Program-made: the position numbers and the translations under genes
From: Flammeovirga sp. SJP92
GTDB taxonomy: Bacteria; Bacteroidota; Bacteroidia; Cytophagales; Flammeovirgaceae
Assembly: GCF_001583495.1 (NCBI RefSeq)
Contig: NZ_LQAQ01000060.1
Span: forward strand, 1-64,000
Direction of reading: 5' to 3'
DNA length: 64,000 nucleotides
The notes under the pieces: model-generated
What the model was told of the DNA's origin: nothing
Databases searched by the model: none
Seen by the model: the letters and a program-made list of their open reading frames with translations, nothing else
In this document: piece after piece, positions 44,383 to 49,280 of the stretch
Layout: each line of letters starts with the position of its first letter
Position numbering within the stretch: position 1 is the stretch's first letter

Positions 44383-45129
44383 TTAAACATGACTTAAAAA
44401 AGTATCTATGATTGGTTTAGAATCTATTATTTCGTTTTGTAAAGTAGGTGTAAATTCAGGATGCCACTGCACCCCCATCACTTTACCAGGTTTCTCTTTT
44501 TTGTAACCGAAGGCCTCTATTAATCCATCATCAGAAGTAGCCCAAATTTCTAGGTCTTTTCCTAAGTCTTTGATTGCTTGATGATGCACAGTGTTTACAT
44601 AGGGATGCTTGTGATCTGCATATAATTCACTGAAAAAAGTATTCTCATTAATGAGTAAAGGATGCTTGATACTGTCGTACTTCTGTGCATCTCTATGATG
44701 GTTAACATCTTCTCTCTGTGATTTTGTATCCTGATAAAGTGTTCCTCCAAAATAAACATTCATCAACTGAAAACCTCTACACACTCCCAAAAGTGGTTTC
44801 CCATTTTTGATGGTATAATCAATAATTTTCAGTTCGTACTCATCTCTGTACCGATCACCTTTCCAAGGACCAATAGGTGTTTCTCCATATGTTTCAGGTG
44901 CTATATCTACTCCTCCTTGTAGAATTACTCCATGAAGCTCTTCTAAAATAGGATAAAGTCTATCGTCTGAGATATCTGGAAGTAAAATGGGTAAAACACC
45001 ATGCTGTGCTACATAATCCATCATATCATTTTCTATATAAGTCAACGATTTTGGACCATAAACGGCACGTTCAACATCGGGATACATAAAACTGGGTGTA
45101 ATTCCTATATTTATCATTCTATAATGCAC
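44383..45129 (-). CDS. Gamma-glutamyl hydrolase, PuuD-like class-I amidotransferase family
   Basis: This 248-residue member of peptidase family C26 has the nucleophile Cys in LLGVCRGFQLMN and the His in MGVQWHPEFTP. HGVILQGGVDIAPETYGE is a typical N-terminal segment. PuuD removes gamma-glutamyl groups from gamma-glutamyl-GABA. Its start overlaps the iron alcohol dehydrogenase gene by 11 bp, which indicates translational coupling. In this operon it would release glutamate and an amino acid at the end of the pathway. It is cytosolic with no signal peptide. Confidence 0.9.
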   Translation of the reverse strand: MHYRMINIGITPSFMYPDVERAVYGPKSLTYIENDMMDYVAQHGVLPILLPDISDDRLYPILEELHGVILQGGVDIAPETYGETPIGPWKGDRYRDEYELKIIDYTIKNGKPLLGVCRGFQLMNVYFGGTLYQDTKSQREDVNHHRDAQKYDSIKHPLLINENTFFSELYADHKHPYVNTVHHQAIKDLGKDLEIWATSDDGLIEAFGYKKEKPGKVMGVQWHPEFTPTLQNEIIDSKPIIDTFLSHV

Positions 45130-46270
45130 TAGTGTAAATGGAGATAAAGTCTTCTTCGGTGGCCACCTTCGGATTGAATGGCAATGTAAAATCTTTCACC
45201 GCCAATGATGCCAAAGGTTTTATATGTTCTTCCTTCACTCCTATCTCCGATAGTTGATTGGGCATTCCAATCTGTTCATTCATCACCTCAATATGATCCA
45301 CCAAGTTTTTACCTTGGTTGCTACCCAAATTCATATTGTATGCCATGATATTGTACTTTTCTTCAAAGCCCTGATAATTGAATTTCAGGCCAAAAGGCAA
45401 ACAGATTGCATTTGCTAATCCATGGTGCGTATCCAGCAAACTGGAAAGTGGATGAGCTAAACTATGGACAATTCCTAAACCTTTCTGAAACGCTACAGCA
45501 CCCATCAACGACCCCATCATCATTTTGGAACGGGAAAACATATCTGGCTCATTCGTGGCTTGAATGATTGATGTGGCAATCAGTTTCATTCCCTGAATGG
45601 CAATACCATCACACATAGGGTTGAAACCTTTGGAAAGGTATGCTTCCATATTGTGCGTTAACGCATCCATTCCTGTAGCAGCGGTAACAAAAGGAGGCAA
45701 GTCCAATGTGAGCATAGGATCTGCGAAAACAATTTTAGCCAAAAGTTTAGGAGAAAAAAGAATCTTCTTTTGTTTGGTGACATCATCCGAAATAATGGCA
45801 CTTCTACCCACTTCACTGCCTGTTCCAGATGTTGTTGGAATGGTAATAAAATGCGGTACTTCTTCTGTGACATATTTGTCGCCACCTATGAGGTCATCAT
45901 AATCAAATAAGTCTCTGTGGTGATTAATTCTTAAAGCAATGGCTCTCGCTACGTCCATAGCCACTCCACCACCAAGACCAATGATTGAATCACATTCATT
46001 TTCTTTATAAAAATCACCTCCTCTGATCACATCTGATTTCACAGGGTTTTTCTGCATTTCAGAATATACCGCTGGAGACAATTCTTGCTGTTCTAATTTC
46101 TGAACGATTTCTTTGAAAAAAGTCAACTCAACCACCGTCCCATCTGTGACAATCAAGGGACGTCTCAAATTATTTGTTTTTAGGTAATCGCCTAATTCGT
46201 TGACTACCCCTACACCAAAACGAATGGTTGTAGGGAAATTGTAAGTGTAAGTTTGATGTATATCGAGCAT
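45119..46270 (-). CDS. Iron-containing alcohol dehydrogenase
   Basis: The 383-residue group III dehydrogenase has the NAD(P) signature GLGGGVAMDVARAIAL and PTTSGTGSEVGRSAI. The metal ligands have the usual spacing: Asp and His in GMDALTHNMEAY, then His residues in HSLAHPLSS and THHGLANAICLPF. It begins 2 bp after the ligase gene stop and overlaps the PuuD-like gene. The classical Puu pathway uses a flavin oxidase (PuuB) at this step on gamma-glutamylputrescine. An alcohol dehydrogenase here suggests the ligase product carries a hydroxyl group. It is cytosolic and iron-dependent; a reductase role in the opposite direction cannot be excluded. Confidence 0.93.
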   Translation of the reverse strand: MLDIHQTYTYNFPTTIRFGVGVVNELGDYLKTNNLRRPLIVTDGTVVELTFFKEIVQKLEQQELSPAVYSEMQKNPVKSDVIRGGDFYKENECDSIIGLGGGVAMDVARAIALRINHHRDLFDYDDLIGGDKYVTEEVPHFITIPTTSGTGSEVGRSAIISDDVTKQKKILFSPKLLAKIVFADPMLTLDLPPFVTAATGMDALTHNMEAYLSKGFNPMCDGIAIQGMKLIATSIIQATNEPDMFSRSKMMMGSLMGAVAFQKGLGIVHSLAHPLSSLLDTHHGLANAICLPFGLKFNYQGFEEKYNIMAYNMNLGSNQGKNLVDHIEVMNEQIGMPNQLSEIGVKEEHIKPLASLAVKDFTLPFNPKVATEEDFISIYTSAL

Positions 46271-46272
46271 AG

Positions 46273-47631
46273 TTAAATAATTTCAAAATAACGTTTAGTT
46301 TCCCAATCAGTCACTTCTTTCATAAACTGTCTCCATTCCCACTCTCGTGACCTAGTAAAGTGATCTATAAATTCCTCCCCAAAAAGTTCTACCATCAAAG
46401 AAGATCCTTTCATTTTCTGCGTTGCTTCCCATAAATTGGAGGGCAATGTGCCGTTTGCTAAATCCTCGTAACCATTGCCTATTGTCTTTGGGGTTTCCAG
46501 CTTCATGTTTTGTTCTATTCCATAAAGCCCACTTGCCAAGCAAGCGGCCATTGCCAAATATGGATTTACATCTGAACCGACTACTCTTGTTTCTAATCGA
46601 CAAGACTTTTCACCATGTGGCAAGGCTCTGAGTGCTGTTGTTCTATTATCTATTGCCCAAGTCAATGTAGTAGGTGCCCAAGCCCCTTCCACCAATCTTT
46701 TGTAACTATTAATAGTTGGTGCCAACATTGGCAACATAAAAGGTAGACAATGCAACTGACCCGCTATATAGCTTTTCATAGTATCACTGATATGATCTTC
46801 TGCTTTGGCCTCATAGAAAAGATTTTTTTGCTTTGAAGCATCCCATAAACTTTGATGTATATGTCCACTACAACCCGGTAAAACACTATTTTGTTTCGCC
46901 ATAAAACTGGCAATTATACCGTGTTTGTAGCCAATCTCCTTTACTCCGGTTTTGAAAAGCGTTGCCCTGTCTGCCGCCTCTACAATTTCACTGTATTGTA
47001 TTGCCGCTTCATATACTCCAGGTCCCGTTTCGGTATGAAGTCCTTCCAATGGTACTTTGAAACTTTCCAACATATCAAACAAATCATGAAAGAATTGGCT
47101 GTTTTCTGAAGCCCTTAGTATAGAATAACCGAACATTCCTTCAGTTAAAGGCTGAATATTCTGAAAGCCTTTTTGATAAAGCTCTTCTGATTTTTGTCGA
47201 AAATTGAACCATTCAAACTCCTGAGAGAAAAAGGGCGTAAATCCTAAATTATGTGCTTTTTCCTGCACTCTTTTTAATAATGCTCTTGGACCTACGGTTT
47301 CATCATCTTTATTTTCTCTGCTGAAATCAGCCAGGAAAAAGGGCAAATCTTCTTCCCATGGAATCTGTCTGAAGGTAGCCACATCAATTCTTGCGGGTGC
47401 ATCAGGGTATCCTGTGTGCCATCCCGTCACTTTAGCGTTATCATAAGATTCATCAGCCATGTCCCAGCCAAAAACAACATCGCAAAAACCGAAGCCTGTT
47501 TTTAATGCTGCTATAAATTTATTGATGTGCATAAATTTACCTCTAAGCACACCATCTATATCTACAATGGCTACTTTTACTTTTGAGTGTCTACTGTCTT
47601 CTAAGAGATCAATTACTTCTTGTTTGGTCAT
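46273..47631 (-). CDS. Glutamine-synthetase-family gamma-glutamyl-amine ligase (PuuA-like)
   Basis: The 452-residue protein has the GS catalytic barrel: TETGPGVYEAAI (glutamate/metal site), SGHIHQSLW (ammonia/ATP region), TLTWAIDNRTTALRALP and CRLETRVVGSDVNPYLA (ATP and glutamate phosphate). The N-terminus (VKVAIVDIDGVLRGKFM) is like PuuA and other gamma-glutamyl amine ligases rather than the true assimilatory GS types. The family joins glutamate to an amine at the expense of ATP. As the first gene of the operon it would prime the amine substrate. Which amine is used is not visible; ethanolamine or another amino alcohol fits the downstream dehydrogenase best, while putrescine remains possible. 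Confidence 0.9.
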   Translation of the reverse strand: MTKQEVIDLLEDSRHSKVKVAIVDIDGVLRGKFMHINKFIAALKTGFGFCDVVFGWDMADESYDNAKVTGWHTGYPDAPARIDVATFRQIPWEEDLPFFLADFSRENKDDETVGPRALLKRVQEKAHNLGFTPFFSQEFEWFNFRQKSEELYQKGFQNIQPLTEGMFGYSILRASENSQFFHDLFDMLESFKVPLEGLHTETGPGVYEAAIQYSEIVEAADRATLFKTGVKEIGYKHGIIASFMAKQNSVLPGCSGHIHQSLWDASKQKNLFYEAKAEDHISDTMKSYIAGQLHCLPFMLPMLAPTINSYKRLVEGAWAPTTLTWAIDNRTTALRALPHGEKSCRLETRVVGSDVNPYLAMAACLASGLYGIEQNMKLETPKTIGNGYEDLANGTLPSNLWEATQKMKGSSLMVELFGEEFIDHFTRSREWEWRQFMKEVTDWETKRYFEII

Positions 47632-47837: not shown

Positions 47838-47867
47838 CAAAAAAAAAGCTCACAAAAACTGTGAGCT
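47838..47867 (-). terminator. Terminator of the tetR-ahpD-like operon
   Basis: On the minus strand AGCTCAC / GTGAGCT (7-base loop) is followed by TTTTTTTTT, 40 bp after the AhpD-like gene. Confidence 0.85.
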
Positions 47868-47906
47868 CATCATAATTATATCATTAAAATAGAAGCAGAA
47901 TACCTC

Positions 47907-48263
47907 CTATTCTTGATTTTCTTTTTCTTCAAAAAGAGCATCCAAATATTCCATGGCTCTTCTTAAATGCGGAATTACAATGGTACCTCCAACAACGTTG
48001 GCAACACCCATGCCTTCTACAATCTGCATTTTAGAATAACCAAGCTCTACACATTTTTCTAAGTGGTACTTCACGCAATCATCGCATCTCAGCACCAAAG
48101 AAGTTGTAAGACCAATCATCTCTTTTGTCTTCTCATCCAATGCACCTTCTGTGTATGTGATCGTGTCGAGACTATAGATCCTTTTGATCACTTTGTCAGA
48201 ATTGTTGATCACTTTTTCGTTTAGAGCAGCCCTTTTGTCTCTGTATTCTTCTAAAATATTCAT
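47907..48263 (-). CDS. AhpD-like carboxymuconolactone decarboxylase family protein
   Basis: This 118-residue protein has the AhpD-type active-site motif, Cys-x2-Cys followed by His (VLRCDDCVKYHLEKC, about residues 50-64), and the helix QIVEGMGVANVVGG. AhpD-class proteins use the Cys pair as a thiol relay for peroxide or redox partners. Many small family members have no proven substrate. The start is 38 bp downstream of the tetR-type gene, with no terminator between, so they are probably cotranscribed and controlled by the operator at 48920-48935. Confidence 0.9.
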   Translation of the reverse strand: MNILEEYRDKRAALNEKVINNSDKVIKRIYSLDTITYTEGALDEKTKEMIGLTTSLVLRCDDCVKYHLEKCVELGYSKMQIVEGMGVANVVGGTIVIPHLRRAMEYLDALFEEKENQE

Positions 48264-48301: not shown

Positions 48302-48880
48302 TTAAATAAAGCTTAGATTTAAATCAATTAGGTCTTTCATTTCCTTTTTGTCGGCATACACTCTGCGGGTGACATTAATGCCATTCCAGAAATTGATCAA
48401 ATGCCTTGATAATAGTGATGGTGGCAATGTAGATTTGATGATACCTTTTTCTTGAGCAGATTGAAGTGTTTTGATCAAAATACTTTCAAAACGTTTCAAA
48501 TAAAGTACTGCCAATTCTTTCAGCTCATCATCTTTTCCCGTAAATTCTACAATAGAGTTCCCAAGAATACATCCTTTACAATCTTCATCAAAAGAGGCGT
48601 CCACCATATCATAAAACAGTGCTTTCAAGTCTTCGATAGGCTGTGTGCTTTTTTCCAAGCTTTCTTCAAGTCGGTCCAAGCCTGTTTGCTCCATTTGATT
48701 CAAGCCTGCTTTAAAAAGTTCTTTTTTACTTTTGAAAACGTTGTAAAGGCTGCCTTTATTAAGGTTTACTTCTTTGAGAAGGTCGTTGGTGGTGGTTGCT
48801 TCGTAGCCATTTTTCCAAAATAGTGCTATTGTTTTTGAGAGCAATTCACCCTGATCAAAAATTCTGGGTCTACCTGCCAT
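48302..48880 (-). CDS. TetR/AcrR family transcriptional regulator
   Basis: The 192-residue protein has a TetR-type N-terminal HTH (about 10-55; ALFWKNGYEATTTNDLLKEV and NKGSLYNVFKSKKELF). The C-terminal ligand/dimerisation domain contains DCKGCILGN, with two Cys that could sense redox or electrophiles. It is similar in organisation to regulators of small AhpD- or oxidoreductase genes. Its promoter overlaps a perfect palindrome (see the promoter entry), so it most likely represses itself and the AhpD-like gene. Confidence 0.92.
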   Translation of the reverse strand: MAGRPRIFDQGELLSKTIALFWKNGYEATTTNDLLKEVNLNKGSLYNVFKSKKELFKAGLNQMEQTGLDRLEESLEKSTQPIEDLKALFYDMVDASFDEDCKGCILGNSIVEFTGKDDELKELAVLYLKRFESILIKTLQSAQEKGIIKSTLPPSLLSRHLINFWNGINVTRRVYADKKEMKDLIDLNLSFI

Positions 48881-48905: not shown

Positions 48906-48936
48906 CAAAGTTAGTCTAATTGACCCCAAGGTCAAA
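48906..48936 (-). promoter_or_regulatory. tetR-type promoter with overlapping palindromic operator
   Basis: On the minus strand TTTG (plus 48933-48936), 19 bp, then TAACTTTG (plus 48906-48913) is a full consensus Bacteroidota promoter, ending 26 bp before the start codon. The perfect palindrome TTGACC-N4-GGTCAA (48920-48935) covers the -33 box edge and the spacer. Binding there would block RNA polymerase, so this is the likely operator of the encoded TetR protein. Confidence 0.75.
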
Positions 48937-48974
48937 TATTAAATAAAAATTTTTGACACTTAAGCCAAAAACTT

Positions 48975-49181
48975 TTATTCGAGATGTACTTCTCTTTTAT
49001 CTTCGTGTTTAATTGAATAAATCTTAAACGGTATCACTAAACAATTCAAAAGACAAACACCCAATAAAATTGTTGAATAAATTTTTAAAATTAAGATCTC
49101 AGGAATCACAACATAAGATAAAACAAAAACACCAATCAATGAAAAAATTAGTGCTATGTAATATTTCGATATTTTTTTCAT
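48975..49181 (-). CDS. Small two-TM hypothetical protein
   Basis: The start at 49181 (MKKISKYYIALIF) is preferred over one 54 bp upstream because a basic N-terminus before a TM helix is typical. The 68-residue product has two hydrophobic helices (LIFSLIGVFVLSYVV and STILLGVCLLNCLVIPF) and a charged tail (KHEDKREVHLE). I do not recognise it; it resembles many short membrane proteins. It stands between the TetR operator region and the SulP gene. Confidence 0.5.
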   Translation of the reverse strand: MKKISKYYIALIFSLIGVFVLSYVVIPEILILKIYSTILLGVCLLNCLVIPFKIYSIKHEDKREVHLE

Positions 49182-49280
49182 TTCGTAAGTAAGTCTATAC
49201 ATGTGAGTTACATAAATATAGTCATTTATTACCATAAATCAGCCACTTACATAAGGAATAAAAAGCTTCTGAAAAAAAAT

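Follow-up and report, generated by a model that had tools for sequence, protein, structure and literature searches.

A conserved palindrome at the promoters of tetR-ahpD and a distant peroxiredoxin gene in Flammeovirga: a putative NemR-like oxidant-defence regulon

Results

The tetR-ahpD locus

The window, which is the whole 64-kb stretch of Flammeovirga sp. SJP92 DNA that was analysed, contains on its minus strand a tetR gene (48302-48880) encoding a TetR-family protein of 192 aa (TetR_N, 5.2e-13, 49 bits with a cut-off of 24; TetR_C_13, 1.9e-10, 41.5 bits with a cut-off of 27). It is followed, after a gap of 38 bp, by an ahpD-like gene on the same strand (47907-48263). The predicted product of this gene has a CMD domain (1.1e-13) and the motif E-x11-C-x2-C-x3-H, features of a putative AhpD (CMD) peroxidase; the motif is present in 9/9 orthologues and is the one known from M. 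tuberculosis AhpD. A terminator-like stem-loop with a T run is found after ahpD at 47846-47868 on the minus strand (10-pair stem, 0.5 expected by chance in the scanned stretch), and would close a two-gene tetR-ahpD operon. Further downstream on the same strand, at 45119-47631, are an iron-alcohol-dehydrogenase-like gene, identified by eye, and a glutamine-synthetase-family gene; a gene of the latter family also comes after ahpD in three other Flammeovirga loci (L036, L039 and L040).

The sequence-only reading had placed a perfect palindrome, TTGACC-N4-GGTCAA, in the promoter region before tetR. The exact match, TTGACCCCAAGGTCAA, is present at 48920-48935 (no strand assigned) with 0 mismatches, and is the sole exact site in the 64-kb window. 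The arms of this site, here called operator O1, are perfect over 6 bp and its four central bases are asymmetric; read toward tetR it is TTTGACC TTGG GGTCAA. The promoter which the palindrome was said to overlap could also be confirmed, as TTTG-N19-TAACTTTG at 48906-48936 on the minus strand, pointing to tetR. The -33 element, TTTG (48933-48936), is common to the outer arm of O1. The -7 element, TAACTTTG (48906-48913), is of the form TAnnTTTG, described as the -7 consensus for Flavobacterium psychrophilum sigma-A (PMC9723704), and the ATG of tetR starts at 48880, 25 bases beyond it. TTTG-N18..21-TAnnTTTG gave one match in the window, with 3.0 expected in shuffles, so that the promoter match by itself proves nothing. 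A sigma-70 promoter scan gave no match at the O1 site, as expected for Bacteroidota promoters. A second, weaker operator, O2 (TTGGCTTAAGTGTCAA, 48953-48968, minus strand), has 9/10 core bases and is situated 33 bp upstream of O1. An 86-aa hydrophobic ORF at 48975-49235, with no Pfam or NCBIfam match, ends just upstream of O2.

Conservation of the operator

Footprinting was performed with nine Flammeovirga genomes, aligned on the operator without gaps. The closest named homologues of tetR are those of F. aprica and two Flammeovirga strains, with 80-83% TetR identity. TTGAC-N6-GTCAA was found before the orthologous tetR in 9/9 genomes, starting 46-82 nt upstream of the ATG. Invariant columns made up 10/10 of the core, 0/6 of the centre and 4/60 of the upstream flank, and on these counts it is TTGAC-N6-GTCAA that is conserved, the centre being variable, rather than TTGACC-N4-GGTCAA in the strict sense. 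The T before the core, which completes TTTG, is present in all nine genomes; a recognisable -7 element 19 bases after TTTG is present in seven, and is missing in G007 and G008. An O2-type site with 8-10/10 core bases lies 33-34 bp upstream of O1 in 6/9 genomes, with the full core in G002 only, and is missing in G004, G007 and G008. The score for the O2 spacing, summed over the nine genomes, was 65, compared with a mean of 31 and a standard deviation of 5 for 283 offsets; the adjacent offsets scored 49 and 47, and the best elsewhere 42. The distance between O1 and O2, about three helical turns, would set two dimers on one face.

The order tetR then ahpD, on the same strand, was observed in 9/9 genomes, directly in six and with a DUF417 gene between the two in three (G001, G002 and G006). 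The DUF417 protein of G006 scored 103.7 bits with Pfam DUF417 and matched NCBIfam RclC weakly (55.7 of 275 bits); a search of the window genome for DUF417 gave no match at E 1e-6. Matches to AhpD were found in 71 of 148 genomes of the order, 7 of these being Flammeovirga. Outside the genus neither tetR nor the peroxiredoxin gene described below was beside AhpD in any of 13 loci inspected, and the link between AhpD and tetR therefore looks recent; the idea of AhpD and tetR as an ancient pair was rejected, for the window's AhpD, on the same 13 loci.

A probable second target in trans

A search of the genome for the exact palindrome had been proposed as a means of defining the regulon. TTGACC-N4-GGTCAA occurs in two places in the 8.49-Mb genome, and the copy other than O1 sits within a SusC-like coding region and was rejected as a target. 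The exact motif fails as a regulon query since it yields only this coding-region site and misses the peroxiredoxin operator. The core, TTGAC-N6-GTCAA, occurs in 13 places, compared with 12 for the reversed control, so these counts are at chance level, and O1 is judged real on its conservation in 9/9 genomes and not on motif counts. Two of the 13 sites are those of tetR and the peroxiredoxin gene, and of the other eleven four were inspected (L001, L061, L095 and L099), all of them inside open reading frames.

The genus-wide scan for further targets used TTTTGAC-N6-GTCAA, and in six genomes copies were found before the same peroxiredoxin gene. A gene search then gave an orthologue in 9/9 genomes, each with the exact core upstream. 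The core starts 33-59 nt upstream of the aligned start in eight genomes; in G002 it is at 110 nt, where the alignment begins only at residue 24, and the distance from the site to the gene's own start codon is about 26 nt. As with tetR, 10/10 core columns were invariant over the nine genomes, compared with 7/60 in the flanks. A paralogue of the peroxiredoxin, 44-54% identical, had the core within 220 nt upstream in 0/9 genomes, the best sites having 3-4 mismatches. The trans target has an AhpC-TSA domain (82.9 bits, cut-off 26) and a WCPYC cysteine motif, as FFRGSWCPYC or FYRGSWCPYC, in all nine genomes; it is thus assigned to the AhpC/TSA peroxiredoxins, with peroxidase activity predicted, and an N-terminal signal peptide was judged by eye. 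TAnnTTTG runs into the operator in all nine peroxiredoxin promoters (TATATTTGACC in eight and TATTTTTGACC in one), so that one and the same TTTG arm has two uses, forming the -33 element before tetR and the last part of the -7 element before the peroxiredoxin gene. Orthologues of the peroxiredoxin were absent at E 1e-25 from 9 of 10 genomes tried outside the genus. At L065 1612-2466 (G006) and L067 1613-2467 (G001) an AraC-type regulator gene and the peroxiredoxin gene are transcribed away from each other, and the operator lies in the gap; the AraC-type identity was checked with Pfam for L067 only. The genus-wide core scans, with a minority of the singleton sites inspected, showed no third target group common to most genomes, as judged from the matches listed. 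Given the further operator copy before a distant peroxidase-type gene, the palindrome appears to label a small group of oxidant-defence genes and not a single operon.

The regulator protein

The structure model of the regulator (mean pLDDT 85) matches many TetR structures. NemR chain A, 4yze_A, was fourth by E-value with a TM of 0.81; among the 50 matches listed, 4l62_A and 2g7s likewise have a TM of 0.81. In the PDB sequence search NemR was a weak match (5e-4), behind 2i10, CifR and others. The best NCBIfam match was AcuR (NF051457), at 54.7 bits far below its cut-off of 247, and the protein was not assigned to that family. The predicted recognition helix, residues 42-49 (KGSLYNVF), is encoded at 48734-48757 on the minus strand, and residues 40-47 read LNKGSLY[NH] in the nine genomes.

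The two cysteines of DCKGCI to which the sequence-only reading had drawn attention are Cys101 and Cys104, the only ones in the protein; the codons of CKGC, a proposed thiol switch, are at 48569-48580 on the minus strand. Cys104 aligns with Cys106 of E. coli NemR, the bleach-sensing cysteine, and was found in 49/49 distinct homologues (from 53 loci). Cys101, which completes a CxxC, is present in 9/9 Flammeovirga proteins compared with 1/40 other homologues, that of the planctomycete locus L006. The model places both cysteines in a lower-confidence loop before helix 105-113; Cys106 of NemR is likewise described as lying within a flexible loop (PMC8748444). In its alignment and its loop position Cys104 thus corresponds to the NemR redox cysteine, and its own redox role is putative. 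The position of NemR Lys175 is Arg in all nine Flammeovirga proteins; Lys175, the proposed partner of Cys106, is reported to be dispensable in a biosensor (PMC8748444). Redox sensing by the regulator's cysteines is plausible, given the alignment of Cys104 with Cys106 of NemR and the near restriction of Cys101 to the genus.

Eleven TetR_N proteins were found in the window genome, and LNKGSLYN occurs in the window's only. The core was not found within 150 nt upstream of any of the other ten genes, the best sites having 2-4 mismatches; for L142 and L144 this check is weak because the chosen start codon cuts into the HTH. Several of these other tetR genes (L145, L147, L139, L142 and L148) have upstream palindromes of their own, such as ACAGTACACTTA-N6-TAAGTGTACTGT (L145) and AAAAATGTCACT-N4-AGTGACATTTTT (L147), which are candidate operators.

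Homologues outside the genus

A CMD/peroxidase-like gene, identified mostly by eye, is directly downstream of the tetR homologue in 17 of 26 non-Flammeovirga loci, L028 included, and second downstream in L029. Two peroxiredoxin genes are present in L013, and also in L028, and the remaining seven loci have other genes downstream. These counts are not independent, since many of the 26 loci come from closely related organisms (Winogradskyella). In scans of three of the CMD-like proteins, L028 alone passed Pfam CMD, and the match to TIGR01926 ('peroxidase-related') was below cut-off in all three. The gene that follows the distant homologue L014 encodes a NemA-type reductase and scores above the cut-off. 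A further 14 homologue loci from outside the genus, L041-L054, have SDR, GAPDH, hydrolase and other genes as neighbours; inspection by eye of about 1.5 kb downstream showed neither a CMD nor a peroxiredoxin gene, and the redox theme is therefore not universal. Palindromes of other sequence, for example TTGTACTAATCAGTACAA, were seen by eye at the same place in several non-genus loci. The CxxC homologue of Mariniblastus (L006 2992-3576) has an upstream gene that by eye is metallo-beta-lactamase/glyoxalase-II-like. In two Bacteroidetes MAGs (L013 2230-4095 and L028 2992-5448) tetR and the peroxiredoxin genes, with CMD in L028, follow one another in a single direct run, much as if the split regulon of Flammeovirga were joined in one operon.

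Discussion

In marine Flammeovirga the palindrome very likely represents a genuine and evolutionarily conserved site at which a NemR-like repressor binds, and the assignment of operator and regulon is well supported by the genome comparison. That comparison brought out the operator, the second site, both target units and the resemblance to NemR; from these we infer DNA binding by the window protein, repression, a thiol-oxidation trigger and a role for each cysteine. The model of an operator over the tetR-ahpD promoter, originally drawn from the one palindrome, gains support from the nine-genome footprinting, the palindrome in the E. coli nemR promoter (see below) and the NemR-like fold, and a conserved palindrome over its own promoter is what would be expected of an autoregulated TetR repressor.

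O1 would be the primary operator of the TetR-family regulator encoded just downstream, and a dimer bound there would cover the -33 element and spacer and so block the tetR-ahpD promoter. A second dimer is probably accommodated by O2, which is present in the window genome and five of its eight relatives. The same regulator would repress in trans the gene for the AhpC/TSA-family peroxiredoxin with its signal peptide, where the -7 element overlaps the operator. If Cys104 becomes oxidised, a step in which the genus-specific Cys101 of the CxxC would assist, the NemR-like regulator may let go of DNA, so that thiol oxidants would lead to production of AhpD and the secreted peroxiredoxin, joined in three species by a DUF417/RclC-like membrane protein. 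We consider it probable that the locus encodes an autoregulated NemR-like repressor of tetR-ahpD, through O1/O2, and of the peroxiredoxin gene in trans, which is freed by thiol oxidation. The fuller picture is held only tentatively, as one possibility: a two-locus oxidant-defence regulon in which a CxxC switch and one operator used in two promoters keep an intracellular AhpD and a secreted peroxiredoxin silent until reactive oxidants, perhaps algal hypohalites, are met. The suggestion that algal hypohalite is the signal in nature is speculative.

The operator could be real and autoregulatory and the signal still be a small molecule, such as an electrophile, quinone, acyl-CoA or epoxide, with the cysteine no more than a structural signature of the family. 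Cys104 is present in every distinct homologue, and the gene partners of these homologues vary widely; the best NCBIfam match, although far below its cut-off, is to AcuR, a regulator of acrylate use; and CssR is a stress-linked TetR protein whose cysteines are reported not to be redox-active (PMC8176726). Against this, the genes linked to the operator belong to thiol-peroxidase families in all nine genomes, the extra Cys101 occurs in the lineage with peroxidase targets, and DUF417, a gene type of bleach regulons, has entered the operon in three of the nine. On balance sensing of a ligand is regarded as unlikely, while deserving some weight.

It is much harder to believe that the adjoining tetR does not encode the repressor, and that some other factor, either another TetR paralogue or a member of another family, occupies the conserved palindromes. 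Two of the other ten TetR_N proteins, L138 and L145, have KGA-type helices like that of NemR, which would give such a factor some basis, but among the 11 genes the core is upstream of the window's tetR only (subject to the doubtful starts of L142 and L144), and the gene for L145 is preceded by a long palindrome of another sequence. Conservation over the nine genomes extends to the recognition helix as well as the operator core, and a box of the same type is found in the promoter of nemR, whose product is a close structural relative. That the palindrome arose by chance, with the TTTG/TTGAC letters supplied by the promoter element and the symmetry accidental, is scarcely credible. The genome-wide counts, about equal to the reversed control, are what chance would give, but this reading is already contradicted by the nine-genome comparison, in which all ten core columns are invariant in two unrelated promoters while the flanks diverge, and by the paralogue control.

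The comparison shows how the TTTG promoter elements of the phylum can, at two different positions, form the basis of an operator half-site. It also supplies a precisely defined operator, a further site, a target at an unlinked locus and specific residues for mutation, so that the redox-switch idea is testable with one protein and three DNA probes. To our knowledge there is no characterised NemR-like oxidant repressor from this Bacteroidota group. A literature search found nothing on such a regulon in Flammeovirga or Bacteroidota; it covered open-access papers and a small part of the matches was looked at, making this silence weak evidence of absence.

Comparison with known systems

The nearest known system is NemR of the E. 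coli nemRA-gloA operon. Both regulators have the TetR fold (TM 0.81), are encoded by the first gene of their operon, are linked to detoxification targets, and have a cysteine in a flexible loop and a palindrome of the form TxGACC-N4-GGTCxA in their own promoter. The K-12 nemR promoter, read from its sequence, contains TAGACC-GACT-GGTCTA, and we take this TAGACC-N4-GGTCTA to be the NemR operator; no published NemR box sequence was found in the literature. O1 has the same spacing and the same GACC/GGTC, and differs by one base per half-site (TTGACC instead of TAGACC). The two proteins are 20.6% identical, and the window regulator has Arg at Lys175 and two cysteines, as CxxC, instead of six. Its targets are a CMD-family AhpD downstream and a peroxiredoxin in trans, in place of NemA and GloA. 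CifR of P. aeruginosa is among the best PDB sequence matches (6nsn, 8.6e-9), is also a structural match and has been solved on its operator. Unlike the regulator proposed here it is not known to be a peroxidase regulator, and its signal is an epoxide; no literature on that signal was found.

Other systems share single features. RcrR of UPEC is described as an oxidant-responsive TetR-family repressor in an operon, rcrARB, with the DUF417 protein RcrB, and RcrB and its homologue RclC as DUF417 proteins of HOCl-response regulons (PMC9600549), which recalls the DUF417 gene in the tetR operon of three of the nine Flammeovirga genomes. RcrR, set beside the window protein by its description, differs in acting through Cys54 and Cys95 with intermolecular disulfides (PMC9600549), and this pair is not found in the window protein. 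AltR of Pantoea, likewise compared by description, is a NemR homologue with an essential cysteine, Cys100, a perfect inverted repeat in its own promoter and copies before other targets (PMC13178969). It differs in its operator (CAATCTAC-N6-GTAGATTG), its thiosulfinate signal and the location of its targets in one clustered tolerance island (PMC13178969). The RclR-rclX system of P. aeruginosa is reported as a bleach regulon with a putative peroxiredoxin (PMC7464077), and differs in that RclR is of the AraC family. CssR (PMC8176726) and the Acidovorax tetR-pqi system (PMC4204640) were rejected as models, the targets described for them being different. The Flammeovirga system would thus be of a known kind, that of the NemR-like autoregulated TetR repressors, and would differ from it in targets, cysteine arrangement and promoter geometry.
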